IMG/VR virus record: IMGVR_UViG_3300044626_000751
Span: 1 to 23,307 of that record
Source: a virus
Strand: one strand, 5' to 3'
Length of the DNA: 23,307 bases
Under the pieces are notes generated by a model. It searched no databases. It was not told where the DNA came from and worked only from the letters and a program-made list of their open reading frames with translations. Shown one piece after another: positions 2,467 through 22,319 of this stretch. A program made the position numbers and the translations under genes. Within the stretch, counting starts at the first letter, position 1, and every line of letters begins with the position of its first letter.

Positions 2467-5400
2467 ATGTCAGTACTAGATTTCAAGTCAGATTTATCAA
2501 AATATAGAGCTGAGGTTTCCGTTGAAGAGAAGAATGGACCACAGACATCCGTTGCGAAAAGTAGTAAAGCGTTCGCAACACTTCAACCTATTACTGATAA
2601 GTTATTAAAGAATTTACCAGAAATAAAAAAACCACAGCAGCAACAATCGTCCTACGATAAAAAATTAGAGCAAAGTAAATTAGATGATATTATTCGTAAA
2701 GATTTTGATAATATGATTGTTAATTCTGTTTCCGAATATTCTCCAACTAATATTGATACTAACACTTATAATTTGGGCAGACAAACATTAGATAAAATTA
2801 TCTCTAAGTTTTCAGATATAAAGCAAGAAGAAATTGTTACTCATTTGGATAAATCGAACACTTTAGTATTAAAATCAACTTCTGGTAAAAATAATAACGA
2901 ATCACCGATTGAAGTTAAACAACCAAATCCAATGTTTGATTTTTCTGGCACTACACCTGACATTAAAAAGTTAGAAGGTAATGAGTCAGACAATATTGTT
3001 ATTCCTGAAATAAAAATTAATGGTAAACCACTTACTATAAATCGTGAAAAACAAACGGTTATTATAAATAGAACTTTATTTTCACCAATAAATAATGTTG
3101 TTAATCCTAACATAGCGTTATCTAAAGAAATAAAAGTTTCAACCAAAAAAATACAAACACCCGATATAGTAACAGATACTATAAAAGAAGGGCTTGTAAT
3201 GAATCCTGATACTAAAATTGTTAAAATACAAGCGGGTATGAATCACTTCATTGATGAGAGTGATTTGAATTTAGCTGATAGAGTTGCTAGATTTAATCCA
3301 ATGTCTAAACTTGTAACCAAAGAACCTGTTTTAAAAGTAATATCAAGTAAATACGATGGTATATCAGCACAGTTAAAAGATAGAAGCAAATTCAATATAG
3401 ATACTGTTTCACGAACAAATCCAACAGGTAGAAATGATGATCCAACCTTGTCATTGTATGCAAACAATAAGAATTTTATAGCTGATTTCTTTGGTAACCA
3501 GTTCTTTAAAGGATTCAGTATAAATCAAGCACAATCTGATTATAATGAAAAAGCAGTATCTTCTTACGGATGGAGTGGTAATTCTGCTAATGCGCCAACA
3601 ACAAACTTTATGTCTGATTCAAATGCAAAAGGTTTCAAGAAGTTTACAAAACAAAATGAAACAGAATATAAAAGAGATATTTCTGTTTTTGGATTTGATA
3701 CAATACGCTCAGTTAATTTCTTTGATGTAAAGAAAGAGTACGCAAAACAAGGATTTACACCGTTTGCACGTGGATTGGAAACCAGTTATATAAATGATGT
3801 TTCTAATTTTACATGGGTTGGCAAGAAAAAGGTAGCACCTGCGGTGGATTATTTTGATATTGGAAGAGAAAAATCAACAGCCGGATTCCACACATTCGCT
3901 CAAAATTTAGAAACTAAATACAAAACATCTGCTTCGATTTATGATTGGGACGGTAAACGTGAAAGAGCACCTGAAGTAAATTACTTTGATATATCGAAAC
4001 AACATACAAAGAAAGGATTTCATAAATTTGCAAGAAATCTTGACAGTAAATTTATTGCGGAATCTTCCATTTTCGATTGGGATGGAAAGCGAGCAAAAGC
4101 ACCGAGTGTAAACTACTTTGATGCTGCATTAACAAACACGACTGTAGGTTTCCATAACTTTGCTCAACTATACGATACAAAGTACAAAACAGAATCTTCT
4201 ATTTACGATTGGGATGGCGTTCGTGAAGATGCTCCTATTGTAAATTATTTTGATTTAGGTGGTAAGAATACAAGTATTGGTTTTCATTCATTCGCTCAAA
4301 TTTACGATACAAAATATGTAACATGGTCTTCCATTTTTGATTGGGATGGATATAGAAGAAATGCACCGTATGTTAATTATTTTGATGTAAGTAAAACAAA
4401 TTCAAAGGAAGGTTTTCATAATTTTGCTCAACTATACGATACAAAGTATGTACACGAATCTTCCATTTTTGATTGGGACGGAAACAAACAAGAAGCGCCT
4501 GTTGTAAACTACTTTGATTTAACTGGACAAAATACATCGATTGGTTTCCACTCATTCGCTCAGAAATATGATACAAAATATATTCCAGAATCTTCTATAT
4601 ATGATTGGGATGGTACAAAAGAACAAGCACCTGGTGTTGATTATTTCGATGGTCCAAAACGTAACACAACAATAGGTTTTCACATATTTGCACAACACCT
4701 TGATACTAAATACATTCACGGTTCTTCAAGATTCGATTGGGATGGTTTTAGAAAAGATGCTCCTGCTGTAAATTACTTTGATACGCCAGAAACTAATAGA
4801 ACTGAATTTATTGGTGGGTTTTCTTCAAAAACAAGAGCAGGATTCCATGCGTTTGCAAGAAAATATGATACACAATATATTCCACAATCTTCTGAATTTG
4901 ATTGGGATGGTACTCGTGATAATGCACCAACTGTAAACTATTTCGATACAACTCTTACAAACAGAACAGAATCAGAGTTTCCAACTGGCTTTATTTCACA
5001 CACAACAGCTGGTTTCCATGCATTCGCTCAAAAGTATGATACAAAGTACGTTAGAAATTCTTCTATATATGATTGGGACGGAAAACCAGATAGAAAGAAT
5101 TTCAAAAATCCTATACCAGTTGATTACTTTGATAATACCGCTGCGGTTGGAAGATTGTTTGGAAAGGGTTTAATAATAAACTCAAGAAACGATTATCGTG
5201 GTGGTGGACTCGTAGTTGGTACAAAAGATAAATTTATAGCAAAGACTCTTGGTGGTTTCCACATATTTGCACAATTATATGAAACAAAGTATATACCAGA
5301 ATCTTCGAGGTTTGATTGGGATGGTACTCGTGAGAAAGCACCAACTGTAGATTATTTTGATACTGCAAAAACAAATCGTTCCACTTCTGAACTTATTAAT

Positions 5401-8400
5401 GATTTGTTTGTTCCAAAAACATCAACAGGTTTCCATACATTTGCATTAAGATATGATACAAAATATATTCCAGATTCTTCTATTTACGATTGGAATGGTA
5501 AATCTGATAGATTGAATTTCAAAAATCCTATACCAGTTGATTACTTTGATAATGTAGGTGGATTTAATAAGACATTTAGTGATTCTTTATTTATCAGTAG
5601 TGGTGCAAATTACTTTGGCGGTGGTCTTGTTGTTGGAAGTGTAGATAAGTTTATTACTAAAACAACAGACGGTTTCCATATATTTGCACAATTATATGAT
5701 ACAAAGTATATACCAGACGCTTCTCGCTTTGATTGGGATGGTTTACCAGACAGAACTGGCTTTGCAAATCCACTAGGTGTTGATTATTTCGATACTGCGG
5801 TGGGTATAAATGAATACCGTACAAGAATCGGTCTTCCTGTGTTAATGACAAAAACTCTCAAGAACTTTCAAAAAACTACTGCAGGTTTCCATGTATTTGC
5901 TCAAACTTACGATACAAAATATATTCATGGTTCTTCTCGTTTTGATTGGGATGGTGGACGCCAATCAGCACCAGCGGTTGATTTCTTTGATAATTTATCA
6001 GTTTCAAGAGTTAATGATAGAATTAGTCAGTTAGTTTCATTCCGACCTAAAGTTGGTGCAAAAGATGGATACGTAGTTAAGACTCATGGTTTTGATACGT
6101 TTATTGATACATATGATACACGATATATTGATGCAGCTTCGAGATTTGATTGGGACGGTAACAGAAATGATGCACCTTCTATAAATTATTTTGATTTACA
6201 AAGTAGACATACGAATGCTGGATTTCATAAATACGCTGTTAGAGGTGATACAAAATACATACAAGCAACTTCAATTGACACACCAACTTCAGAATTTGGA
6301 TGGGGTGGTAGTAAGCAAAAAGCAAAAACAGTTGATTTCTTCTTTAATAGTTCTGGACAAGGTTTTAAATCATTTTCATTAGAACTGATTTCAAATTACC
6401 TAAAAGGTGTTTCAAGGTTTGATTGGGATGGAAATCGTGCTGCTGCACCAGAAGTAAATTATTTTGGTAAAATAACTCCAAAAACTGGTTATGCAAAACA
6501 ATTGATTTCTGCTGAATCTCTGTTCTCTGCAATTTTTGGAAGTAATGATGGTGACTCTGGTTTTAAAACTTTTTTCATAAATAAGAACGATACAAGATAT
6601 TCACCACTTACAACAGAGTTTTCAACTGCAGCGAGATTAGATAGATTTACAAATTTCTTTCCTGCTCCAAACAACTATTATTGGGCAGGCACCAGTAGAT
6701 TAGACGCAACTGATCCATCTACACTTGGATTGACAACTGGATTATTGACAGGTATTGCTGGATTTATACCATATCTTGGTAGTTTGAATAGACCAAACGT
6801 TGATCCGTCAATTCAAATTCCTAGTGGATTATTTCAAACAAAAACTCTTGGTTCAAGATTATCATTAGTTGATGCTAAAGAAAAAAATACACGATTCTTT
6901 GGTTGGGGTAAATATCCAGATTTCAAACAAGGATTTTTGCCTAACATGACTATATTTGATGGTACTATGTATCCTATAATACTACCGCCATTGACTACTA
7001 GTGATAGAGCTGACTTTTACACAATGCGGAATCAGATTAGTGAATTACGAGCAGGAAGAGATGTGTTTGGTACTGCGTTTGACCTAGTAACCGATACTAC
7101 GTGGGATGATGGTAGAGAGAATACGGTACTCGTTCAGAGAAGAGATGCATCTGGTCCATTGGGGCAAGTTGGAATGGGTATGCAAGTTGTACACGGTATA
7201 AATACACGTGATAGTTGGCATACTAATCAGCAATTGTTTTTAGATACATACTTACCTAATTCATTGGGTAAACGCCCTTGGCAATCCAATATGGGTAATT
7301 CATTGTTTTCAACATTATCCAATCAATATCCTACATATGCTGGAGATAAGTTATCTAGATTTTATGGATATAGAAGACCTAACCATTCTGGTGTTTATGG
7401 TGAAACGGGATTAATGGATGATATTAGGGATAGATTCAGAGAGCATTATGATGGAATTAAAACAAATGTAGATAGAAGAATTTTTGCAGGTGAACGATAT
7501 GAAACTCAATTAAAAAATGGTTTTTGGGCACGACCAGTAACCGATGAAGAAGCACAGGTGGCAGAAATAGTTAATGATCCAGGAGCATATGAAGCAAGTG
7601 GGTATAAATCTACACCTAAAGATTGGCAAAATGGACTTTCTACATTAACTAGTTACGTTGGACATTGGCAAATTGATACTGAATCTCAAAATTTAGTTAG
7701 AAAATATGGTAATATTGTTAGATGGGCTGTAAAGTCTGGTGAATTGGAAAAGCAATATAATAAGTATAGTTTAAGAGCAGACGCACATAATACTGACTTG
7801 TTCTGGCGTCAACCATATTACGTAACGGAAATTGGATCCCATTGGGGAGGTGGAAATGGTGGCTGTGGACGGGGAAGTATAACTACTCAAATAGATAGAA
7901 GAATAGCAGATACATCACGTATATTCAAGTTTATGACATCTGGTAAAGGTATTATGTGGAACTTAGTACAATTTGGGTTACAAGCAACTAATCCATCCTT
8001 GGATAGTTGGAGTGAACCATTTGATTTGTTTCAACAGGATGCATTGGGAGAGAAAAACGTATTAGAAAGGGGCCCAGATGGTTCTGAAAAATTTACACAA
8101 TCAATTAATGTAACCAATACGTCTTTACTTCCTAACTTTTTTGGTAAAGATGACGGTAATGGCGGTATAAAATCCTTGTTAGGTAATACAAATATATTCA
8201 TGCCGCCACCAACACAAATATATAATCCACTTTCTATTTTTCAGAATATATTAGGTAGTGGTTTTCTTACTCGTACTCAAAGACACTCAACTGCTGCTGC
8301 ATACGGAATGGATGGTCCAGGTCAATGGCAAAAGGGATATAAAGAGCAGATTGGTTCTTTAACAACATATAAAATTGGAACAGGCGACGGGAAATTTGAT

Positions 8401-11250
8401 ATATTAACAGAAAGAAAAAATATAGATAATGTAGGAACTACGGCAGATTTGAAAAACTTAGGTTTTCCAACTGGACGTAATAATGTTCCAAAAGACTTGA
8501 ATCAACACTATGAGGCACAAACTACATATAGAAATAAAACAGGATTTATTGATCAAAACATAGCGGGATTAAAATACGGTCCAAAATCTTTTCATATGAA
8601 AGATGCAGCTGGTAATTGGGTAGCACCTGCATTTGATCCATCACAATGGAACAGTACAGCAAAAAATCCATCTGCAACGGGTCCATATGATGCCGGACTA
8701 AAGGATGAAAAAGCATCTTCATTGGACTATTTTGAAGACCCAAAGAAAGATAATAATATAACTCGTCAGCGGAGATATAACCGTTTGATTGGTTTGATGA
8801 AAGAACTTTTACCACAGTCATTTGCTCCTACTATGGATCCGACTCGTGGTGGAACACCACAAGCGGACTATGGTCCATCATTTGATTTACTTAAATCGAG
8901 TAAGCCTGCTTCATTGGTTGATCAGATTGCTGGGTTCTTACCATTTAAAACAAGAATGATTATGCCTTGGGAGGGTATTGCCGGTGGACTTGAGGAAGGG
9001 GATTATAATACAGCAGGAATAAACGCAACTGACCCACAGTCAAAACTGCGTATACAAGCAAGTACAGTATTATTGAATGTTAGTAATAAAAGACTTAGTG
9101 ATTCGGAAATAATAAGAATTTCTTCTAATTTTGGTGGACCACATTCATTTTTTGGATTGTTTGGTACTAAATTTACCAAATCTTCTCATAAGTTACTTGG
9201 ACCATATACAACATCGCCTGTGTTAGATAAAGATAAAGTTAGAGACGGACTGCAAAGAGAATCGTTTTTCTCATTGGACTTCTATGGTTCTTACCGAGAA
9301 AGATTAAAAGCGATTCGTGTTAAAGAATTAACTTCTATTTCGAAATCTGGAGACATTGGTGGTGATTTACGTTCACTTGTTGCCGGTTTAACTGTACAGA
9401 GAGATGGTTCTACCCCATTAAATCCGTATGCACAAGGAAATGCCTTTTTAACAGATGGAAGAAGTACAGCAATCGATAAAAAATATAAGAAATTATTGGG
9501 TGAACAAATAACAATTCAACCAATTACGCAGATGCGTTTACAGACTAATAATCCTTTTGAATTCAGATACCCATCCTCTACCGATAGATTAAGAAATATA
9601 TCAGGAATTCACATTGCTAGAGGCGCAGGAATGGACAGTTCAAATGCATTCATACCAGATGCATCAACTGCTGTTGCTGGAAATACACCAAACAGAATTA
9701 CAAATCCTATTTTGAGTCCAATAAAATATCATAAAACATCAGATTATGCTCATTTAACAAAATACAAAGTATCAAGACCAGGCGCTACAGCAAATTGGAA
9801 TTCATCTGCATTTACAGGTGCAGGTTCTCTGAGAAGTGAAAAGTTTAATGATTTCCGTTGGGACATTGAAGATTTAAACGGTACAGAAGCAGGTGCAACT
9901 CCTAATGCAACTGCAGGTTGGAATGACAAATTAAGTCTTGCATTTTCACCACATCCTAAAATAATTGACTTTCAAAGTCAAAATTTAGAAACAAAATTTG
10001 GATTAAGTGGTGCTGCTGGTAAAGCGGGTGTAGATAGAGGAAATCCAAGAGTTACACATATACAACATCAAAAAATACAAGATGCTTTTAGTGGAACAAC
10101 TGGTAATATTTCAGGTAGTGGTATTACATTACCAGGTGGTATAGCGTTAGGTGGTGCTGGTGGTGGAGTCACGTCGATTATAAAAGGAAAAGGTGGAAAA
10201 TACGCAACATATCCTGTACCTGTGGCAAAACCAGGGTTTACGGCAGACGCGTTTAGAGGAGATAGAATTAATATTATAGATTATAAGAGAGCTAATTTCC
10301 CTATAACATCTGATTTGGTTTATGAAAAAGGAGTATTTGATAATCCAAACGGTATTCCTGGAGCAGATGATTTAGTAGAATTTTACTTCTCAAGTCTTGT
10401 GTTAGACGGACATAATTATTGTCCTGCCGAAGTAATTGTATTTAGAGCAACATTTGATAGTATTACCGATAACCATAAACCAACGTGGAATGCGGTTAAA
10501 TATATGGGTAGAGGAGACCCACTCTATACATACGACGGTTATGAAAGAGATGTTTCATTTGGATTCACAGTACATATTGGTTCTCGTGATGAAATGAAGG
10601 CTTCTTGGCGTAAATTAAATTATTTAGCAGGTTATACTGCGCCAGAATATACGAGTGCAGGATTTATCCGTGCACCGCTTTGCCGTCTTAATATAGGTAA
10701 TTTATTTAAGAAAATGCCTGGCTATATTAGTTCACTTTCTTATACATTTGATAATCAAGGTAGTACATGGGAAACCGCTCATCTTGAAGGTGATCGCTAT
10801 AATAATACAACCAACCCAACTGTAAGAGATGAATCAACGCCTGGTGTTTTACAATTACCGAAAACAATACAGGTAGCAGTTGGATTTGTTCCAATAGGTG
10901 TTTATCGTCCAGAAAAATATGGTGTATTTTATCCATTATATGATGATAGAACTAATAGTGCAAACGATATAGAAACAGGACTCATACCAGACACCGATGA
11001 ACGTGTTAATTGGTTTAAGCCATTTGATAATATTACTAATTCACTTGCTATTGTTACTGCTGGTACTCCAGGTATACCTGTACCATTATTACCAGGTCAA
11101 TTAGGACCAGCAGCACCAGCAGTAGCAGCGGTTGGTGCAACAGGTGGTGATGCAGACGCAACGGAATATTTAGCAGTTCGTCCAGGTGATGAAGAGGTGG
11201 TACTAAACCAAGCAACATTTGCTCCAGCATCGATTCCGCCAATACCATAA
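2467..11250 (+). CDS. Giant (2927 aa) repeat-containing baseplate protein
   Basis: The start is ATG with AGGA seven bases upstream. Visible layout: residues 1-~360 are polar and Asn/Lys/Ser-rich, probably flexible. Residues ~364-1380 are about 19 imperfect repeats built on F/Y-D-W-D-G, then A-P-x-V-(N/D)-Y-F-D, then G-F-H-x-F-A and D-T-K-Y. Residues ~1380-2600 are unique and include a GSHWGGGNGGCGRGS segment (~1790), an R-R-I-A-D-x-x-R-I-F-K-F segment and Y-N-P-L-S (~1919), in the style of long structural proteins of large phages. Residues ~2600-2800 contain G-R-G-D-P-L-Y-T-Y-D-G-Y, S-R-D-E-M-K and L-N-Y-L-A-G-Y-T-A-P-E-Y, resembling tube/baseplate junction proteins (T4 gp48/gp54-type role). 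The end is Pro/Ala/Gly-rich. Position between the tape measure and a LysM/hub pair supports a baseplate role. The repeat function is unknown; the C-terminal assignment is from memory of family patterns and moderately sure. No frameshift was seen. Confidence 0.8.
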   Translation: MSVLDFKSDLSKYRAEVSVEEKNGPQTSVAKSSKAFATLQPITDKLLKNLPEIKKPQQQQSSYDKKLEQSKLDDIIRKDFDNMIVNSVSEYSPTNIDTNTYNLGRQTLDKIISKFSDIKQEEIVTHLDKSNTLVLKSTSGKNNNESPIEVKQPNPMFDFSGTTPDIKKLEGNESDNIVIPEIKINGKPLTINREKQTVIINRTLFSPINNVVNPNIALSKEIKVSTKKIQTPDIVTDTIKEGLVMNPDTKIVKIQAGMNHFIDESDLNLADRVARFNPMSKLVTKEPVLKVISSKYDGISAQLKDRSKFNIDTVSRTNPTGRNDDPTLSLYANNKNFIADFFGNQFFKGFSINQAQSDYNEKAVSSYGWSGNSANAPTTNFMSDSNAKGFKKFTKQNETEYKRDISVFGFDTIRSVNFFDVKKEYAKQGFTPFARGLETSYINDVSNFTWVGKKKVAPAVDYFDIGREKSTAGFHTFAQNLETKYKTSASIYDWDGKRERAPEVNYFDISKQHTKKGFHKFARNLDSKFIAESSIFDWDGKRAKAPSVNYFDAALTNTTVGFHNFAQLYDTKYKTESSIYDWDGVREDAPIVNYFDLGGKNTSIGFHSFAQIYDTKYVTWSSIFDWDGYRRNAPYVNYFDVSKTNSKEGFHNFAQLYDTKYVHESSIFDWDGNKQEAPVVNYFDLTGQNTSIGFHSFAQKYDTKYIPESSIYDWDGTKEQAPGVDYFDGPKRNTTIGFHIFAQHLDTKYIHGSSRFDWDGFRKDAPAVNYFDTPETNRTEFIGGFSSKTRAGFHAFARKYDTQYIPQSSEFDWDGTRDNAPTVNYFDTTLTNRTESEFPTGFISHTTAGFHAFAQKYDTKYVRNSSIYDWDGKPDRKNFKNPIPVDYFDNTAAVGRLFGKGLIINSRNDYRGGGLVVGTKDKFIAKTLGGFHIFAQLYETKYIPESSRFDWDGTREKAPTVDYFDTAKTNRSTSELINDLFVPKTSTGFHTFALRYDTKYIPDSSIYDWNGKSDRLNFKNPIPVDYFDNVGGFNKTFSDSLFISSGANYFGGGLVVGSVDKFITKTTDGFHIFAQLYDTKYIPDASRFDWDGLPDRTGFANPLGVDYFDTAVGINEYRTRIGLPVLMTKTLKNFQKTTAGFHVFAQTYDTKYIHGSSRFDWDGGRQSAPAVDFFDNLSVSRVNDRISQLVSFRPKVGAKDGYVVKTHGFDTFIDTYDTRYIDAASRFDWDGNRNDAPSINYFDLQSRHTNAGFHKYAVRGDTKYIQATSIDTPTSEFGWGGSKQKAKTVDFFFNSSGQGFKSFSLELISNYLKGVSRFDWDGNRAAAPEVNYFGKITPKTGYAKQLISAESLFSAIFGSNDGDSGFKTFFINKNDTRYSPLTTEFSTAARLDRFTNFFPAPNNYYWAGTSRLDATDPSTLGLTTGLLTGIAGFIPYLGSLNRPNVDPSIQIPSGLFQTKTLGSRLSLVDAKEKNTRFFGWGKYPDFKQGFLPNMTIFDGTMYPIILPPLTTSDRADFYTMRNQISELRAGRDVFGTAFDLVTDTTWDDGRENTVLVQRRDASGPLGQVGMGMQVVHGINTRDSWHTNQQLFLDTYLPNSLGKRPWQSNMGNSLFSTLSNQYPTYAGDKLSRFYGYRRPNHSGVYGETGLMDDIRDRFREHYDGIKTNVDRRIFAGERYETQLKNGFWARPVTDEEAQVAEIVNDPGAYEASGYKSTPKDWQNGLSTLTSYVGHWQIDTESQNLVRKYGNIVRWAVKSGELEKQYNKYSLRADAHNTDLFWRQPYYVTEIGSHWGGGNGGCGRGSITTQIDRRIADTSRIFKFMTSGKGIMWNLVQFGLQATNPSLDSWSEPFDLFQQDALGEKNVLERGPDGSEKFTQSINVTNTSLLPNFFGKDDGNGGIKSLLGNTNIFMPPPTQIYNPLSIFQNILGSGFLTRTQRHSTAAAYGMDGPGQWQKGYKEQIGSLTTYKIGTGDGKFDILTERKNIDNVGTTADLKNLGFPTGRNNVPKDLNQHYEAQTTYRNKTGFIDQNIAGLKYGPKSFHMKDAAGNWVAPAFDPSQWNSTAKNPSATGPYDAGLKDEKASSLDYFEDPKKDNNITRQRRYNRLIGLMKELLPQSFAPTMDPTRGGTPQADYGPSFDLLKSSKPASLVDQIAGFLPFKTRMIMPWEGIAGGLEEGDYNTAGINATDPQSKLRIQASTVLLNVSNKRLSDSEIIRISSNFGGPHSFFGLFGTKFTKSSHKLLGPYTTSPVLDKDKVRDGLQRESFFSLDFYGSYRERLKAIRVKELTSISKSGDIGGDLRSLVAGLTVQRDGSTPLNPYAQGNAFLTDGRSTAIDKKYKKLLGEQITIQPITQMRLQTNNPFEFRYPSSTDRLRNISGIHIARGAGMDSSNAFIPDASTAVAGNTPNRITNPILSPIKYHKTSDYAHLTKYKVSRPGATANWNSSAFTGAGSLRSEKFNDFRWDIEDLNGTEAGATPNATAGWNDKLSLAFSPHPKIIDFQSQNLETKFGLSGAAGKAGVDRGNPRVTHIQHQKIQDAFSGTTGNISGSGITLPGGIALGGAGGGVTSIIKGKGGKYATYPVPVAKPGFTADAFRGDRINIIDYKRANFPITSDLVYEKGVFDNPNGIPGADDLVEFYFSSLVLDGHNYCPAEVIVFRATFDSITDNHKPTWNAVKYMGRGDPLYTYDGYERDVSFGFTVHIGSRDEMKASWRKLNYLAGYTAPEYTSAGFIRAPLCRLNIGNLFKKMPGYISSLSYTFDNQGSTWETAHLEGDRYNNTTNPTVRDESTPGVLQLPKTIQVAVGFVPIGVYRPEKYGVFYPLYDDRTNSANDIETGLIPDTDERVNWFKPFDNITNSLAIVTAGTPGIPVPLLPGQLGPAAPAVAAVGATGGDADATEYLAVRPGDEEVVLNQATFAPASIPPIP
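3556..6606 (+). repeat. In-frame array of ~19 DWDG repeats (132-bp core unit)
   Basis: Units starting at 3931, 4063, 4195, 4327, 4459, 4591 and 4723 are exactly 132 bp (44 codons) apart. Each encodes S-S-x-(F/Y)-D-W-D-G, A-P-x-V-(N/D)-Y-F-D, G-F-H-x-F-A and (Y/L)-D-T-K-Y. The first three units (3556-3930) are degenerate. Units from 4723 onward carry insertions of varied length between Y-F-D and G-F-H, up to about 37 residues. The units near 6280 and 6409 are again degenerate. Insertions keep the frame, which shows selection on the protein. Confidence 0.93.
5097..5553 (+). repeat. Higher-order duplication within the DWDG array (40-bp identical copies)
   Basis: Positions 5097-5136 and 5514-5553 are identical over 40 bp and lie 417 bp (139 codons) apart. 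They encode N-F-K-N-P-I-P-V-D-Y-F-D-N. The surrounding units also share G-G-G-L-V-V-G and D-K-F-I-x-K-T insertions found in no other unit. A two-unit block was therefore duplicated after the basic array had formed. Confidence 0.85.
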
Positions 11251-11653: not shown

Positions 11654-13699
11654 ATGCCACGAGTTGGAACTGGACCATACGAAAGTCCATTCTATAGAGA
11701 AGTTTATGGGTGGGTGCAAGGAGAATTAAATGCCAGAGCATATCACTATGGTAAGAAAACAAGAGGTAGTGGAGCAGATCGAACAGCTAAAAGTGTTATG
11801 TGGTCATATGGAAAAAAACCGTGGGCAAGGATAACTGGTGGCGGTATTACGTTAGGTACTAATGGTAGTCCGGTTATGAGTAATAGAAACGGTGACTTAA
11901 CTATGTATTCTGCTCAAAGAAATGTTCCAAGATTTCCCCTACTAAAAAGTCTTGAACTTTCCAATGAAGGTACGATGGGCTCTTTACTAAAAGGAAAATT
12001 TACATTTGTCATATACCCTCGCATCAATGCGGCGGGTTTTGAACTTGGTGGAATAGAAACAGCTTTTTTTACACCTGGTGCAGAAGTTAACGTTTCTTGG
12101 GGATGGAGTGTTTCTGCTGCAAATGGACAAGCGTGTAGAGGTCAGTTTAGAGGTATTATATATAACTTTAATTGGTCTGTTAATCCAGATTTATCTATAA
12201 CCGCAGATGTTTCTATTGTTTCTGCTGCAACTGTATCAGTTGGTGTTAGTGGAGACCAAACAAGTCCAGACCAGCAAGGTACTGGTGGTTCTACACCTGT
12301 TATTGACCCGCTTGGTGCACCCATAGTAGGACCAAATCTGGCATCAGTCATAGACAAAGACTTTGCTAATCCAGGTGGTTGGCCAGCTAGTGTTGCTCCA
12401 GGAGCCCAAGCGTATATTGCTGCAACTGCTACTGCTAATCAACTATTAGATTATTTTGCAATAGGTCTTCCATTTCAGGCAGTTGAACCAGAATCGGAAA
12501 GTACAGACCCAAATAATACAGACTCTGCTCAACAGAAAGCGCAAGCACCACCGCCACCTATACCTAAAACTTTTTATTATATAAATCTAGCCAGACTTAC
12601 TGAGTTTGTTAACGCATTGATAGCAAGATTAGAAGGATCGGCTACTGCTGGTCCATTGGGTTCATTATTTAGGGTACAATCATTAAATAATCCAACCGCA
12701 CATAGTCCAGTAATAAAGTCTGCTTTTCCAATTGATGTATATTTTCCAGATCCTACGATGGGAGAATATGGTCCAACATTGAATCCATGGGCAGGTGCAA
12801 GTTCTCTCACGACTGGTATGCCAGCAGGGCAGATTAATATTGGATATATACTGTTAGGTACTGATTTTGTAAAAAATACGTACAAAAATTTTGTAGAAAA
12901 AAATTCTGCTAATATCCCGTATAAAAATATAACAAGTTTTTTTGAAGAAATATGCAAAAAAATAAATGAAGCAACGGGTGACGCTTATCAAATAACTGCA
13001 ACTTTATTTGAACCAACGAGTAACATCGGTGGTGCACCACCTGCTAATGGTCAATGTATACTGAGTATAGAAGATACAAATATGGAGAAATCACTAGTTG
13101 ATGCAGTTACTCCATATGTATTTGGGGTTAATATATTCAGACCTTTGATTAAAAACGCATCCATAAGTTGTAAACCACCTGCTGCATCCGCTGCAGCAGC
13201 GTATACATCTGCGAGGGCAGCCAAAGCACCAACCAACGTAGATGTTAACAATACACCTAGAACATTGCGCAGCCCCGGTGATCAACCACTTGCAGGTGCT
13301 CCAGCCGGAGCCGGTGTAGCAGGTGGAACCGACGCAAAAGCAGAACTTTTGGCTAAAAAAGATTCTGCAGTTTCTTCTGGATTTAATAAGAGTTGGGGTG
13401 AGCAATTTCGTGGATTGTTACAAAAGTATAAGAAGTTTCAAACAGAATCCGGTGCAGGTGGTACATCACAAGATGGACATTGGTTAAATGCTGCAATATA
13501 TCCAATTGATTTAACGTTAACCATTGACGGTATAAACGGTTTTAAATTTGGGGACACTTTAGAATGTAGGGCTATACCAGCAAGGTATAATACTCCACCT
13601 TGGCAAATTGTATTTACGGTTGTAAAAGTAAATCACGTTATAGATGATTCAAAATGGGAAACAACATTAACTACTAAAGCAAGAATTAACTTTGGATAA
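11654..13699 (+). CDS. Baseplate hub-like protein
   Basis: 681 residues; ATG preceded by AGAGG. Residues ~110-200 contain G-K-F-T-F-V-I-Y-P, F-T-P-G-A-E-V-N-V-S-W-G-W-S and F-R-G-I-I-Y-N-F-N-W-S. This is the beta-rich pattern of hub proteins that cap the tail tube (T4 gp27 / P2 gpD class). The C-terminus (~620-681) has F-K-F-G-D-T-L, P-P-W-Q-I-V-F-T-V-V-K-V-N-H and a final T-L-T-T-K-A-R, also typical of these proteins. Between are Pro/Gln-rich and Ala/Gly-rich linkers (~285-300 and ~505-565). No lysozyme domain is visible. The final codons lie in a 22-bp tandem duplication. With a single copy, the frame would end two residues later, at a TAA overlapping the next ATG. Family assignment rests on recalled pattern and context. 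Confidence 0.7.
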   Translation: MPRVGTGPYESPFYREVYGWVQGELNARAYHYGKKTRGSGADRTAKSVMWSYGKKPWARITGGGITLGTNGSPVMSNRNGDLTMYSAQRNVPRFPLLKSLELSNEGTMGSLLKGKFTFVIYPRINAAGFELGGIETAFFTPGAEVNVSWGWSVSAANGQACRGQFRGIIYNFNWSVNPDLSITADVSIVSAATVSVGVSGDQTSPDQQGTGGSTPVIDPLGAPIVGPNLASVIDKDFANPGGWPASVAPGAQAYIAATATANQLLDYFAIGLPFQAVEPESESTDPNNTDSAQQKAQAPPPPIPKTFYYINLARLTEFVNALIARLEGSATAGPLGSLFRVQSLNNPTAHSPVIKSAFPIDVYFPDPTMGEYGPTLNPWAGASSLTTGMPAGQINIGYILLGTDFVKNTYKNFVEKNSANIPYKNITSFFEEICKKINEATGDAYQITATLFEPTSNIGGAPPANGQCILSIEDTNMEKSLVDAVTPYVFGVNIFRPLIKNASISCKPPAASAAAAYTSARAAKAPTNVDVNNTPRTLRSPGDQPLAGAPAGAGVAGGTDAKAELLAKKDSAVSSGFNKSWGEQFRGLLQKYKKFQTESGAGGTSQDGHWLNAAIYPIDLTLTIDGINGFKFGDTLECRAIPARYNTPPWQIVFTVVKVNHVIDDSKWETTLTTKARINFG

Positions 13700-13718
13700 A
13701 GCAAGAATTAACTTTGGA
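13675..13718 (+). repeat. Perfect 22-bp tandem duplication across the hub stop codon
   Basis: Positions 13675-13696 are repeated exactly at 13697-13718, head to tail. The hub stop TAA (13697-13699) is formed by the first bases of the second copy. The second copy also carries the GGAG (13716-13719) that serves the next gene. The length is not a multiple of three, so it shifts the frame. Confidence 0.95.
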
Positions 13719-14391: not shown

Positions 14392-15612
14392 ATGTTTCAA
14401 GATAAATCGTGTGTTTGTGTTCCTCTACTTTCAAATTGGAACAAACATTCTTCTGATACCACAGTAATTGGTATGTACTTTCGATTTACCGATGGTACAG
14501 ATACGTATATTAACTTTACACATCCAGATGAACTCGATTCCGATATTCAATTAACTCATATTAAGTTATCACCAACTTCTCTTGTGTTTAACAAGAAGGC
14601 AATGCTTTATCATGGGTTCAATGAAGGTATTGATTTGAATTCATACTTACATTATTACGCTGGCGATAGTATTAATCCACGAGAATTTTACCCAAAAGGA
14701 ATGGAAGTTTTATCTACTAAGTTCTTTAGAATAGATGATTTAGGTCATGTTATACCATTGGCAAATCAATTGGAATGGGCAAAGAAGATTGCAGAGTATG
14801 TTTTACGGTTTGAGCAATTTAGAAGTGAAAGTATAATAACTCAACAATGTATTGACTATTGCAATGACTTTACAAATGTATTTTATGAAATTGAAAAGAA
14901 TGAAATTCTGGTTGGCGATGAACGTAAGAAACAAAATTATATGTGGTACACCGCAACAAGTAGACCGAGCAATGCGTGGAATAACTTTAACTTCTCTGCA
15001 TTGAATAAAAAAGACGGTACAAGAAATAAAATTCACTCAAGATTTGAAGGTGGAAAAATAGTTCAGTTTGATTATGACGCTTTCCATATTAAGTTATTAG
15101 CAAAGATTTTAGATTATAAATTTGACTACCACCCATATGAACAAATAAAAGCAGAATTAGGAATGGATGGCGAGTATGACACATTCAAAACAAGAGTGTT
15201 TCAAAACATCTATGGTAGAATAACATCAGACTTTATTCAACATCCATTCTTCCAACGTGTACAAGTGGTTATAGATCAATTGTGGGAAGGGTATGAAAAG
15301 GATGGTTATGTTGATTCTCACTTCTATGGCAAACTATTCAGAGGTATCCAAGACCCAACACCGAATAAAGTATTTAATTATATACTTCAATCGTTAGAAA
15401 CTGAATATAATGTGAAAAAGATTAAAACTGTTTTACCTGTTATTAACGATAAAAAGTCCATTTTCTCTATGTATTTGTACGATGCGTTCGTGTTTGATAT
15501 ACATCCAGACGAAGAAAACCTAATAAATCTATTAAAAAATATTTTTGAAACCGATGGAATGACAGTAAAAGTTTTTGCTGGTGATGACTTTGGTGCTATT
15601 AAAAGAATTTAA
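14392..15612 (+). CDS. Compact family A DNA polymerase-like protein
   Basis: 406 residues, less than half of E. coli Pol I. Palm/finger motifs appear in order. An S-R-P-S-N segment (190-194) matches the R-L-S-S-x-x-P-N region. Motif A is F-D-Y-D-A-F-H (226-232), with D227 at the metal-binding position. Motif B is K-T-R-V-F-Q-N-I-Y-G (266-275), matching K758, F762 and Y766 of Pol I. N-Y-I-L-Q (329-333) matches the conserved N845/Q849 pair. Motif C is Y-D-A-F-V-F-D-I-H (363-371), with D364 as second metal ligand. Substitutions: the motif A Glu is His232, and the Glu after the motif C Asp is Ala365. The first ~150 residues show no recognisable 3'-5' exonuclease motifs and the thumb region is short. 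No SD precedes the ATG, which lies 5 bp after the previous stop. It probably extends DNA; whether it is the replicative enzyme is unknown. Confidence 0.8.
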   Translation: MFQDKSCVCVPLLSNWNKHSSDTTVIGMYFRFTDGTDTYINFTHPDELDSDIQLTHIKLSPTSLVFNKKAMLYHGFNEGIDLNSYLHYYAGDSINPREFYPKGMEVLSTKFFRIDDLGHVIPLANQLEWAKKIAEYVLRFEQFRSESIITQQCIDYCNDFTNVFYEIEKNEILVGDERKKQNYMWYTATSRPSNAWNNFNFSALNKKDGTRNKIHSRFEGGKIVQFDYDAFHIKLLAKILDYKFDYHPYEQIKAELGMDGEYDTFKTRVFQNIYGRITSDFIQHPFFQRVQVVIDQLWEGYEKDGYVDSHFYGKLFRGIQDPTPNKVFNYILQSLETEYNVKKIKTVLPVINDKKSIFSMYLYDAFVFDIHPDEENLINLLKNIFETDGMTVKVFAGDDFGAIKRI

Positions 15613-18003: not shown

Positions 18004-18774
18004 ATGGCTATCAATCTTGATGCAATTAAAAATCGTCTGTCTTCATTAAAAAACACAAACAATCGTGTTTCAAACATTTGGAAACCAGAACCAGGTGAAC
18101 ATCAAATCCGAATTGTTCCTTATGTTCACAACTTAGAAAATCCATTCATTGACCTTTACTTTCATTACAACATAGGAAAGCGTTCTATTCTTTCTCCTGT
18201 AACATATGGTCGCCCTGACCCTATTCTTGAGTTTGCTGAGAAGTTAAAACAAACAGGTGACAAAGAAGATTGGCTAATGGGAAGAAAGCTCGAACCAAAA
18301 ATGAGAACATATTTACCAGTTATTATCCGTGGACAAGAATCTGAGGGTGTAAAGTTTTGGGGATTTGGTAAAATGATTTATGAAGAACTTTTAACATTTT
18401 TTGCTGATGAAGATTACGGTGATTTATCCGATCCTAAAAATGGGCGTGATATTGTAGTTACTGTTAAGTCAGCAGAAGAAATCGGTAAGTCTTATGCAGA
18501 AACATCTATTCGTGTTAAACCAAAACAAACACCACTTACAGAAAATGCTGCGGTTCTTGAGAAAGTTAAACAGCAACCAAAAATCAATGAACTTTATCCA
18601 GAACCAACTTATGATGAATTAAAATCCCAATTACAAACTTGGATGGGAACTACACACGAAGATGTTGTAAAAAGTTCTACAAACAACACATATGGTAAAA
18701 CCAGTAATTCAGAAGAACATACAAAAGCGGTAACTTCTTCAACAGTTGCTTCTTCTTTCGATGACTTATTTTAA
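18004..18774 (+). CDS. 32: gp32-like single-stranded DNA-binding protein
   Basis: 256 residues; ATG with a strong AAGGAG seven bases upstream, suggesting high expression. The N-terminus (A-I-N-L-D-A-I-K-N-R-L) and the core W-K-P-E-P-G-E-H-Q-I-R-I-V-P-Y (~27-41), with F-H-Y-N-I-G-K-R-S (~53-61) and G-R-P-D-P-I-L-E-F (~69-77), follow the OB-fold core of T4 gp32-class proteins. The C-terminus is Ser/Thr-rich and ends S-S-F-D-D-L-F, an acidic/aromatic tail of the kind that binds replication partners. The zinc-ligand Cys residues of T4 gp32 are absent: there is no Cys in the protein. It coats ssDNA and would load UvsX, the helicase and the polymerase. It heads the replication block and lies 14 bp before uvsX. 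Confidence 0.9.
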   Translation: MAINLDAIKNRLSSLKNTNNRVSNIWKPEPGEHQIRIVPYVHNLENPFIDLYFHYNIGKRSILSPVTYGRPDPILEFAEKLKQTGDKEDWLMGRKLEPKMRTYLPVIIRGQESEGVKFWGFGKMIYEELLTFFADEDYGDLSDPKNGRDIVVTVKSAEEIGKSYAETSIRVKPKQTPLTENAAVLEKVKQQPKINELYPEPTYDELKSQLQTWMGTTHEDVVKSSTNNTYGKTSNSEEHTKAVTSSTVASSFDDLF

Positions 18775-18788
18775 TAGGGATATACGTT

Positions 18789-19934
18789 ATGGCAAAATCA
18801 AAGAGTGACTTATCCGATGAACTCGGTGGAGTTATTGCAGAAACAATAAATAAAAAGTTCAAAGAACAGCATTTTAAAACCGCTTATTTTCTTGAGGGTG
18901 ATAGTGATGCACCCACGATTGTAAAAGAATGGGTTGGTACTGGCTCAACAATTCTTGATTTGGCAATTTCAAATCGTAAGAATGGTGGATTTCCAGTCGG
19001 TAGAGTGTCTGAAATAACAGGATTAGAACAATCAGGTAAATCATTGTTAGCAGCACACGCTCTACTAAATACTCAAAAAAAAGGTGGACTTGCAGTTTAC
19101 ATAGATACGGAAAATGCAATATCTCCTGAGTTTTTAACCGCAATTGGTTTGAACCTTAAAGATATGCTTTATATTCCATTAGATACGATGGAAGATGTTT
19201 TTGAAGCGGTTGAGGTTATTATAGAGAAAGTTCGTTCCTCTGATAAAAACAAATTAGTTACAATAGTTATTGACTCTATTGCCGGTGCATCTACTAAAAC
19301 AGAGATGGCTGCAGATTTTGATAAAGATGGTTATGCTACGGCAAAGGCACTTATCATTTCAAAAGCAATGAGAAAAATAACAAACTTAATCGGTAGAGAA
19401 CGCATTTGTTTGATATTTACAAATCAACTTCGTCAGAAATTAAATGCGCCAGCATTCTCCGATCCTTGGACAGCACCTGGCGGTAAAAGTATTCCTTTCC
19501 ATGCCTCTGTTAGAATTAGATTGTCTTCTATTGGTGCTATAAAAGTAAAAGTAGATGGACATGAAGAAATCGTTGGTTCAAGAGTAAAGGCTAAATTAGT
19601 AAAAAATCGTTGTGGTCCTCCTCTGCGGGAATGTGAATATGAAGTATACTTCGATTCAGGAATCGATGATTACAGTAGTTGGTTAACAACTATGAAGGAC
19701 TATAAGTTGGTTGATCAGGCAGGTGCTTGGTATTCATGGACAAACAAAGAAACGGGTGAAGTTATTAAATTTCAATCGAAAGATTTTGTTGAAAAAATTA
19801 TGAATCATCCAAAATTAAAAGAAATGATTTATGATGAAATTGCAGAAAAGGTAATTATGAAATACCAACAACTTGACTCTGCTCGTATTGATGAAGTAAT
19901 TATTTCAAACCAGCCAATTGATGATGAAGTATAA
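18789..19934 (+). CDS. uvsX: UvsX/RecA-family recombinase
   Basis: 381 residues; ATG with AGGGA upstream. Walker A is G-L-E-Q-S-G-K-S (78-85). I-D-T-E-N-A-I-S-P-E-F carries the catalytic Glu (E108). Walker B is T-I-V-I-D-S-I-A-G (D162). F-T-N-Q-L-R-Q-K (~205-215) and the A-P-G-G-K-S-I-P-F-H-A-S segment match the L1/L2 and RecA-core regions. T4 UvsX is close in size (391 aa). The protein forms a filament on ssDNA, pairs homologous strands and starts recombination-dependent replication together with gp32. The C-terminus is acidic (P-I-D-D-E-V). The TAA overlaps the next ATG (TAATG), so the two genes are translationally coupled. No UvsY-like mediator is visible in the window. Confidence 0.96.
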   Translation: MAKSKSDLSDELGGVIAETINKKFKEQHFKTAYFLEGDSDAPTIVKEWVGTGSTILDLAISNRKNGGFPVGRVSEITGLEQSGKSLLAAHALLNTQKKGGLAVYIDTENAISPEFLTAIGLNLKDMLYIPLDTMEDVFEAVEVIIEKVRSSDKNKLVTIVIDSIAGASTKTEMAADFDKDGYATAKALIISKAMRKITNLIGRERICLIFTNQLRQKLNAPAFSDPWTAPGGKSIPFHASVRIRLSSIGAIKVKVDGHEEIVGSRVKAKLVKNRCGPPLRECEYEVYFDSGIDDYSSWLTTMKDYKLVDQAGAWYSWTNKETGEVIKFQSKDFVEKIMNHPKLKEMIYDEIAEKVIMKYQQLDSARIDEVIISNQPIDDEV

Positions 19935-20977
19935 TGAACAAGTATCAGAAACTACTTCAAGAAATAGAAACTGAGAAAGAACTACAAGGTAATTTACACC
20001 GCGATAGTAAGGTTTTGATTGTAGATGGAATGAACTTATTTATAAGAACATTTTCAGCTATTCCTACTCTTAACGAGGATGGGCAACACATCGGTGGTCT
20101 TTCTGGTTTTCTCCAATCACTCGCTGCAACAGTCCGTATGGTTAATCCCACACGGGTTGTTGTGGTCTTTGATGGGAAGGGTGGTTCACTAAGAAGAAAG
20201 AAAATATATTCAAATTACAAGGAAGGTAGAGCAAATAAATCTAAATTAAATAGGGTTGCGGGTTTTGAGAATCTTGAGGATGAACAAAAGTCTATGAGGT
20301 TTCAACTGTTTCGTCTGTTTACTTATTTACAGAATTTGCCATTAACCATTATATCGATGGATAATATTGAGGCTGATGATGTTATTGCCTACCTTTCTTT
20401 TTATTTGAAAGAAAAATCTGTTATATTATCGAATGATAGAGATTTTTTACAGTTGGTATCAGAACAAGTTTCTGTGTATTTACCAACGAAAAAAAAGTTA
20501 TATACACCGGAAAATCTATTAGAAGAAACGGGAGTATGGTGTGAGAATTTTATTTTATTCAAAGCATTATTAGGCGATAAGAGTGATAACATTAAAGGCA
20601 TTAATGGGTTTGGTGAAAAAACAATATTGAAACATTTCCCAATACTTTCAGAAAAAAGAAAAATTGATTTAGATATGTTCGTAGAATTTTGTAAATTGTA
20701 TGATAATAAATCTAAAGCAATCAATGAACTCAAAAATAACATTAGTGTATTAGAAACTAACTATAAGATTATGCAATTACACGATGTTGATATTTCACAA
20801 AGTTTTAAATCATCTATACGTGGCATGGTCGATGGTGAAATCCAAAAACTAAATAAAATGGAATTGGACAAATTATTTATAGCAGATAAATTATACTCTG
20901 CTATACCTAATTTTGAACACTGGTTGCAAAGAAATTTTGGAAATCTAAATACGATTCGGAATATATATGCAGGATAA
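19934..20977 (+). CDS. FEN-type 5'-3' nuclease (T4 RNase H class)
   Basis: 347 residues; T4 RNase H has 305. The acidic active-site residues are in order: V-D-G-M-N (D31), F-D-G-K-G-G (D80), E-A-D-D (E146, D148, D149), S-N-D-R-D (D168, D170) and G-D-K-S-D-N (D215, D218). G-I-N-G-F-G-E-K-T begins the helix-3-turn-helix DNA-binding element (~220-232). Such enzymes remove RNA primers and 5' flaps during lagging-strand synthesis, a job done in bacterial Pol I by its N-terminal domain. The start codon overlaps the uvsX stop by one base and the end overlaps the helicase start by 11 bp, consistent with coordinated translation. The C-terminal ~80 residues are Lys/Ile-rich and not assigned. Confidence 0.92.
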   Translation: MNKYQKLLQEIETEKELQGNLHRDSKVLIVDGMNLFIRTFSAIPTLNEDGQHIGGLSGFLQSLAATVRMVNPTRVVVVFDGKGGSLRRKKIYSNYKEGRANKSKLNRVAGFENLEDEQKSMRFQLFRLFTYLQNLPLTIISMDNIEADDVIAYLSFYLKEKSVILSNDRDFLQLVSEQVSVYLPTKKKLYTPENLLEETGVWCENFILFKALLGDKSDNIKGINGFGEKTILKHFPILSEKRKIDLDMFVEFCKLYDNKSKAINELKNNISVLETNYKIMQLHDVDISQSFKSSIRGMVDGEIQKLNKMELDKLFIADKLYSAIPNFEHWLQRNFGNLNTIRNIYAG

Positions 20978-22319
20978 TTTATCCCAATACGGTCAAACGT
21001 TTCAAACAAAAGTAATTATTTCACTATTAAAAGATAGAGAATTCTTACAACAAGTGTCAGACATTATAGATCCAACTTATTTTGAATCACAGGCAAACTC
21101 TTGGTTAGTTGAGAAGATTATTTCTTATTATGAGAAATATAAAAGTCCGCCAACATCAGACGTATTCAAATCTGAATTACTAGTGGTAGATGATAAAGTA
21201 TTGAAAACAACGGTAGTTGATGCACTTAAACAAGTAAAAAAGTACACAGACAATTCTGATGATGAGTATGTTAAAAATACTGTACTTGAATTTTGTAAAA
21301 ATCAAAAGATGAAAATAGCGATATTAGAATCAGTTGATTTGTTAAGAAGTGGTAAGTATGATTTGATTAAAAAGAAAATTGATAATGCACTTAAAGCAGG
21401 AGCGGATAAAGATATTGGACATGAATATAAAATTGATGTAATATCTCGCTATGCAGAAGGTGCGAGAGTGTGTGTTCCAACTGGTTGGAATGTTATCAAT
21501 GACATTATGTCAGGTGGGTTAGCAGCAGGAGAACTTGGTGTATTAGTTGCACCAGCAGGCGGTGGTAAGTCATGGGGCTTAGTGAGTGTTGCTGCAAATG
21601 CAGTTAAAGCAGGTAAACGTGTTATTTATTATACACTTGAATTGAATCAACATTATGTTGCAAGAAGATTCGATGCTTACTTCACAAAGATTGCTTTTCA
21701 AAACTTAGGCGAAGAACACGCACAAGAAAAAATTAAATCGGCAATGGAGAACTTAAAAGGTGAATTGATTGTTAAATATTATCCAACAAAAACTCCATCG
21801 ATTAACACACTCACTTCGCATATAGAGAAATGTATTAGTCAAGGTAAACCACCCGATTTGATTATTGTTGATTACGCAGACTTGATTAAACCCGCAAAAG
21901 CAGGTGATAAGAGATTAGAGTTAAACGATATTTACGAAGACCTTAGAGGAATTGCAGGTTTATATCAACTTCCAATTTGGACTGCTTCACAAGCAAATCG
22001 TTCTTCATTGGAAGACGATGTTATCGAAGGTGGTAAGGTTTCAGAATCATATAATAAAATGATGATTGCTGACTTTGTAATGTCACTATCAAGAAAGTTA
22101 GATGATAAAGTTGGTGGTACAGGCAGATGGCACATTATCAAAAATAGGTTTGGTCCAGATGGCATGACGTTTCCAAGTAAAGTAAACACAATGACTGGCC
22201 ATATAGAAATATACGAACCTAACTCCGATATGGGTAAAACTGTAACGGTTACTATGAAAGGTGAAAAGAATGTAAAGAAAGCACTTTCACAAAAATTTAA
22301 AGAGTTGGAAGGATTTTAA
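20967..22319 (+). CDS. 41: DnaB-type replicative helicase (T4 gp41 class)
   Basis: 450 residues, close to T4 gp41 (475). The N-terminal ~140 residues are helical (I-I-D-P-T-Y-F, then S-P-P-T-S-D-V-F), as in DnaB/gp41 N-domains that build the hexamer and bind primase. The RecA-like core follows. Walker A is A-P-A-G-G-G-K-S (195-202, K201) and Y-Y-T-L-E-L-N sits just after it. Walker B is I-I-V-D-Y-A-D (D302), and W-T-A-S-Q-A-N-R (338-345) supplies the DnaB motif H3/H4 Gln and Arg. It unwinds DNA 5' to 3' on the lagging strand. The start overlaps the nuclease gene by 11 bp. The C-terminus is Lys-rich and ends in G-F. No fused primase or intein is seen. Confidence 0.94.
   Translation: MQDNLSQYGQTFQTKVIISLLKDREFLQQVSDIIDPTYFESQANSWLVEKIISYYEKYKSPPTSDVFKSELLVVDDKVLKTTVVDALKQVKKYTDNSDDEYVKNTVLEFCKNQKMKIAILESVDLLRSGKYDLIKKKIDNALKAGADKDIGHEYKIDVISRYAEGARVCVPTGWNVINDIMSGGLAAGELGVLVAPAGGGKSWGLVSVAANAVKAGKRVIYYTLELNQHYVARRFDAYFTKIAFQNLGEEHAQEKIKSAMENLKGELIVKYYPTKTPSINTLTSHIEKCISQGKPPDLIIVDYADLIKPAKAGDKRLELNDIYEDLRGIAGLYQLPIWTASQANRSSLEDDVIEGGKVSESYNKMMIADFVMSLSRKLDDKVGGTGRWHIIKNRFGPDGMTFPSKVNTMTGHIEIYEPNSDMGKTVTVTMKGEKNVKKALSQKFKELEGF

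Follow-up and report, generated by a model that had tools for sequence, protein, structure and literature searches.

Organization of the locus

The stretch of DNA analyzed here (hereafter the window) is 23,307 nt long and corresponds to positions 1 to 23,307 of the IMG/VR virus record IMGVR_UViG_3300044626_000751. It carries a 2927-aa open reading frame (ORF) directly downstream of the gene for the tape measure protein (TMP) and upstream of a LysM/gp53-type baseplate wedge gene. The features relevant here are as follows:

3–2414, + strand: TMP, C-terminal 803 aa, gene start beyond the window (PHROG 4372 tail length tape measure, E 9e-15)
2467–11250, + strand: 2927-aa tail protein, intact ORF, with N-terminal repeats and a predicted C-terminal tube-initiator domain
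2467–3564, + strand: pre-array region, aa 1–366; shorter repeats in many relatives; its length enters the TMP regression
3565–6612, + strand: array of 19 DWDG units, aa 367–1382 (unit HMM); the unit count enters the TMP regression
3808–4731, + strand: seven units in exact 132-bp register, aa 448–755
6613–10251, + strand: middle region, aa 1383–2595; its length is unrelated to TMP length
10252–11031, + strand: predicted C-terminal tail-tube-initiator domain, aa 2596–2855 (AF2 model, PDB structural matches, phage homologs)
11273–11650, + strand: small baseplate wedge protein, likely of the gp53/LysM type (PHROG 7145 baseplate wedge subunit, E 1e-10)
11654–13699, + strand: probable baseplate hub protein, assigned by position alone, with no convincing family match; control gene in the TMP regression

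Because the TMP gene is incomplete at the start of the window, the complete copy (1296 aa) of L002, a locus near-identical to the window, was used in its place. A 22-bp exact tandem pair (window 13666–13718) lies across the probable hub gene's end and the gap before the next gene.

The DWDG array

An iterated unit HMM detected 19 units at aa 367–1382 of the 2927-aa ORF (window ~3565–6612), starting at aa 367, 411, 448, 492, 536, 580, 624, 668, 712, 756, 811, 868, 949, 1007, 1088, 1159, 1227, 1277 and 1318. This confirms the about 19 DWDG repeats placed at 3556–6606 by a sequence-only reading of the window. The seven consecutive units for which that reading gave an exact 132-bp register were also recovered: the 44-aa/132-bp period is kept at aa 448–755, and TRF independently returned periods of 132 and 264. 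In the units of aa 756–1226, in-frame insertions separate the YFD block from the GFH block, and three of these units have an extra 3–4 aa at an earlier site, after the first G and ahead of the P that precedes YFD. The claim that insertions enter the unit at one point holds mostly for the window, since in relatives (L179 and L131, for example) they occur at other points too.

The array is far beyond chance, because its units recur across full-length relatives that carry the C-terminal domain (the immuto clade, described below, is without DWDG units). Most of the array is too similar between the window and L002 for dN/dS to be informative (5 nt differences in 860 codons), and unit-by-unit orthology with relatives of 57–60% TMP identity was not clean, with the best partners scattered.

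Conservation, fold and family of the unit

In 845 aligned units, G5, G26, F27 and S43 are conserved at 99–100%, and positions 1, 3 and 15 hold an aromatic residue in 97–100%. In contrast, the two Asp positions of DxDG hold D in 56 and 51% of the units, which speaks against the proposed calcium binding by this motif. Near-invariant aromatics and glycines with variable Asp disfavor a metal site and favor a binding motif.

The beta-hairpin or solenoid fold per unit that had been suggested is not supported so far. AlphaFold2 (AF2) prediction of six regular units from a 60-row alignment gave a pLDDT of 36 and a pTM of 0.15; this is weak evidence, since the tandem-unit alignment contained register shifts and the model was a monomer. 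The array unit appears to be without an autonomous predicted fold, and folding on a partner would be compatible with the monomer model. We infer that each unit serves as a binding motif of aromatics and glycines and does not form a domain of its own.

PDB sequence searches with the whole protein, a C-terminal profile and an array profile returned nothing significant (best E for the array not below 0.3), and PHROGs and NCBIfam gave no match for the 2927-aa protein. Pfam matches on array fragments (calicivirus capsid, eIF W2, KilAC) were rejected as repeat-summed artefacts, because their scores accumulated from many ~20-residue matches, individually below threshold, to unrelated families. Pfam WDGH (PF25311) was likewise set aside: ~25 of its 97 domain positions were matched per place, none significant alone, and the scores were summed over the repeats. 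The sequence-only reading described a tail-protein repeat of no recognized family, and no Pfam, PHROG, NCBIfam or PDB family accounts for it.

The C-terminal domain resembles tail-tube initiators

AF2 prediction (58 sequences) of a 421-aa C-terminal construct gave a pTM of 0.76 and a mean pLDDT of 78, with pLDDT >90 over most of the domain at aa 2596–2855. The model matched 6j0n_b (Z 9.1), 6rao_G (8.8), 8kea_R (8.5), 6u5b_g (8.5) and 5iv5_BE (8.1). These moderate scores (Z 8–9) were to tail-tube initiators and tube proteins of PVC, AFP, KP1, cyanophage A-1(L), pyocin R2 and the T4 baseplate, and the predicted tube-like fold is shared with the initiators of AFP, PVC, pyocin R2 and cyanophage A-1(L) and with T4 gp48/gp54. 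With hhalign, the C-terminus reached a probability of 0.09–0.35% against single T4 gp48/gp54 sequences. Since sequence profiles fall short of T4 gp48, the assignment rests on the predicted fold and gene order; T4 gene 48, like the gene studied here, directly follows the tape measure gene (gene 29). These data suggest a tail-tube initiator of the gp48 type, with the C-terminal domain of the 2927-aa protein expected at the tube base. Both this domain and the length coupling described below were missed by the sequence-only reading.

The known initiators are far smaller (about 135–450 aa in the compared chains, with 364 aa for T4 gp48) than the 2927-aa protein, and a 1000-residue repeat array was found in none of them. 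Homologs of the C-terminal domain are present in Flavobacterium phage immuto, Rhodothermus phage RM378 and LR756508 (a 484-kb uncultured phage). Immuto gp035 and the RM378 homologs have the C-terminal domain in common with the window protein, but they are 458–716 aa long, have shorter N-termini and are without DWDG units. The immuto gene lies just downstream of the TMP gene, as in the window.

Two N-termini of other composition were observed. In LR756508 (L010:4765–9504), a long acidic array of 16–17-aa period (EDExFDHTxxESEVP-like) stands before the C-terminal domain; it occupies the pre-array position and is unrelated to both the DWDG sequence and the pre-array repeats. An immuto-clade relative (L087:4985–7726) has an N-terminus with its own repeats of roughly 65–70 aa (GDTRQTTATSGSFGISSNV...).

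Distribution of the array

Scans of IMG/VR detected the C-terminal domain in 66 loci and the array in 74. Every unit-bearing ORF with a C-terminus has the initiator domain; the 11 exceptions end at a contig or locus edge. The array is spread through a large clade of phages; full-length relatives have 7 to 22 units, with a typical period of 39–45 aa and up to about 72 aa, and some tolerate large insertions in every unit. These relatives are mostly metagenomic contigs with guessed start codons, and degenerate units may be missed in the counts. Array relatives were absent from 84,980 bacterial and archaeal genomes, in which 139 pattern matches were found, none of them related.

The sole isolate carrying the array is Microcystis phage Mel-JY01. 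Its WWT39329.1, a full homolog of the window protein but unannotated (hypothetical protein), has 21 units, some near-identical to one another (up to 98%), and 37.6% identity to the window protein over the matched parts. The 70–72-aa units of L179 (L179:9062–17674) have a median mutual identity of 74% (up to 99%), which suggests a recent amplification of units.

The array covaries with the tape measure

For 47 non-redundant relatives, TMP length was regressed on the number of units and the length of the pre-array region. The fit, TMP length = 539 + 19.6 × units + 1.08 × pre-array residues, had an R2 of 0.94 (n = 47), and leave-one-out prediction gave an R2 of 0.93 with an rms error of 22 aa. 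With phylogenetic contrasts, each unit was worth 17.3 ± 1.4 TMP aa and each pre-array residue 1.05 ± 0.08 (R2 0.83; p<1e-13 for the coupling), and 0 of 5000 permutations were as good. Other branch-length schemes gave an R2 of 0.80–0.83, and among the 23 larger predicted contrasts 22 or 23 agreed in sign; contrasts on a tree from two other genes gave 0.90–0.91. The diverged L182/L179 branch was under-predicted, by 101 aa for L182 and 47 aa for L179.

Five control lengths (the LysM gene, the hub gene, two downstream genes and the protein's own middle region) showed no relation to TMP length, and the middle region had no effect as a route of the coupling (p 0.97). In the immuto clade, which is without DWDG units, longer N-termini likewise go with longer TMPs (contrast r 0.63, n 19). 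When TMP insertions were mapped for a fixed place or period, they fell instead in several places, including low-complexity C-terminal stretches. Across relatives, the repeat number in the predicted initiator protein rises and falls with TMP length.

Unit number, not residue span, predicts TMP length

The count and the residue span of the array were compared as predictors with a model fitted to 40 relatives whose units lack insertions; the window's clade was left out. The count model predicted a TMP of 1298 aa for the window, against 1296 observed (L002), and four further insertion-bearing relatives were predicted within 7 aa. The residue-span model overshot the window and those four relatives by 66–131 aa. 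Span, a worse predictor that adds nothing to the unit count, was rejected; unit number, not residue span, matters for TMP length.

Autocorrelation revealed pre-array repeats with periods of 16–17, 20 or 34 aa in many relatives, and no such periodicity was detectable in the window's own copy. The ratio of the two regression coefficients (b_n/b_pre) was 16.4 (95% 14.3–20.4), so that one DWDG unit is worth ~16.4 pre-array residues, or about one short repeat. Close pairs illustrate the exchange. Between L131 and L137, one additional unit and two additional 20-aa repeats go with 54 additional TMP residues; between L045 and L047, three fewer units are offset by 47 aa of ~16-aa repeats at unchanged TMP length; and between L124 and the window, one unit is swapped for one 19-aa repeat (TMP 1302/1296). 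L046/L044, L035/L003, L182/L179 and L132/L121 are less clean. Among the relatives, one unit gained or lost, of either kind, goes with roughly 17–20 TMP residues.

A proposed length-matched string along the tape measure

By convention, control of tail length is assigned to a single protein, the tape measure. At this locus a second, unrelated protein follows TMP length, and its units and preceding short repeats predict TMP size to about 1–2%. The sizes of the tape measures of lambda (gpH), T4 (gp29) and diffocin (CD1366) track tail length as the array tracks the TMP; the array differs from them in that another protein carries it and that units, not residues, are what is counted. A length coupling between initiator and tape measure was not found in the literature searched. 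Through the array, the reading of a tape measure can be studied with a modular partner whose units can be counted, and length coupling between adjoining genes is a computational test that can be applied to other phages.

The repeat is real, a length-matched string attached to a predicted tail-tube initiator. As to its physical role, the C-terminal domain would anchor the chain at the base of the tail tube, and the N-terminal half would form a string of short 16–20-aa repeats followed by DWDG units. This string would run along the TMP and advance by a fixed axial step with each unit, so that string and TMP must end together; while the tail is assembled, it would serve the TMP as a sleeve or co-ruler of matched length. 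Its path would most likely be beside the TMP within the tube lumen, since the initiator is at the tube base and the TMP inside the lumen (T4 review, PMC3004832; diffocin, PMC11329794). We consider it probable on balance that the protein is a gp48-type initiator with a modular repeat string count-matched to the TMP and running along it as such a sleeve or co-ruler. The stronger proposal, that tail length is set by two matched rulers, the TMP and an initiator-anchored string of interchangeable units each equal to one fixed axial step, is tentative and we think it rather doubtful. Co-variation of array and TMP lengths is not contact, and a causal role of the array in setting length is conjectured from comparative sequence data.

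A tail tube ring is about 40 Å high. The diffocin TMP covers 1388 Å with about 817 residues, implying 1.7 Å per residue (PMC11329794), and at this value 17–20 TMP residues per unit correspond to ~30–34 Å. This step is somewhat shorter than a tube ring, and therefore a rule of one unit per ring is not claimed. By rough volume arithmetic with general values, six arrays and a TMP trimer would just fill the ~40 Å lumen with 44-aa units, and would exceed it with the 70–72-aa units of L179. So tight a volume may point to a smaller number of copies, a path outside the tube or a role confined to assembly.

An assembly-only role could be that of a chaperone in cis, whose repeats would coat the new TMP, one unit per ~17–20 residues, for TMP solubility and baseplate loading, with no need to line the mature tube. 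The coupling is in TMP residues per unit and not obviously in ring height, the units are aromatic-rich and the array is without a stand-alone predicted fold, all of which would suit a chaperone. To our knowledge, however, the known phage TMP chaperones are separate proteins, whereas the array is fused to a predicted structural ring protein, and we judge a chaperone in cis to be unlikely. An external sleeve, which would follow the tail shaft or the outer face of the tube and hence track tail length, would give a coupling of the same appearance, and the large insertions in every unit of some relatives fit better outside a crowded lumen. A contracting sheath, however, leaves scant space around the tube, and the initiator would anchor the chain at the tube base; such an arrangement seems improbable.

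Correlation by itself is also compatible with no contact between the two proteins, both lengths answering a common pressure independently, for example a host envelope that favors longer tails and larger baseplate extensions. Against this, the residual scatter is just about 16–21 aa, the two unit types exchange close to one-for-one, count outperforms span and neighbouring genes show no relation, which gives independent responses a similarly low probability. The suggestion of the sequence-only reading that the units are receptor-binding or calcium-binding beads on a fibre drew on the DxDG-like motif and on insertions resembling surface loops; with Asp conserved at 51–56% only and no predicted fold, and with the TMP coupling left unexplained, it is hardly credible. 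The preferred reading remains a count-matched string along the TMP.

Replication genes of the window

A 406-aa ORF (window 14392–15612) has motifs (DYDAFH, YDAFVFD) like those of the family A DNA polymerase palm, with no obvious exonuclease part and a weak PHROG DNA polymerase match (E 0.011); this could be a polymerase that is split or reduced to a minimal form, as reportedly occurs in phage RM378. Window 18004–22319 is a T4-like replication block, with a single-strand binding protein, a UvsX recombinase, a 5′ exonuclease and a DnaB-type helicase.
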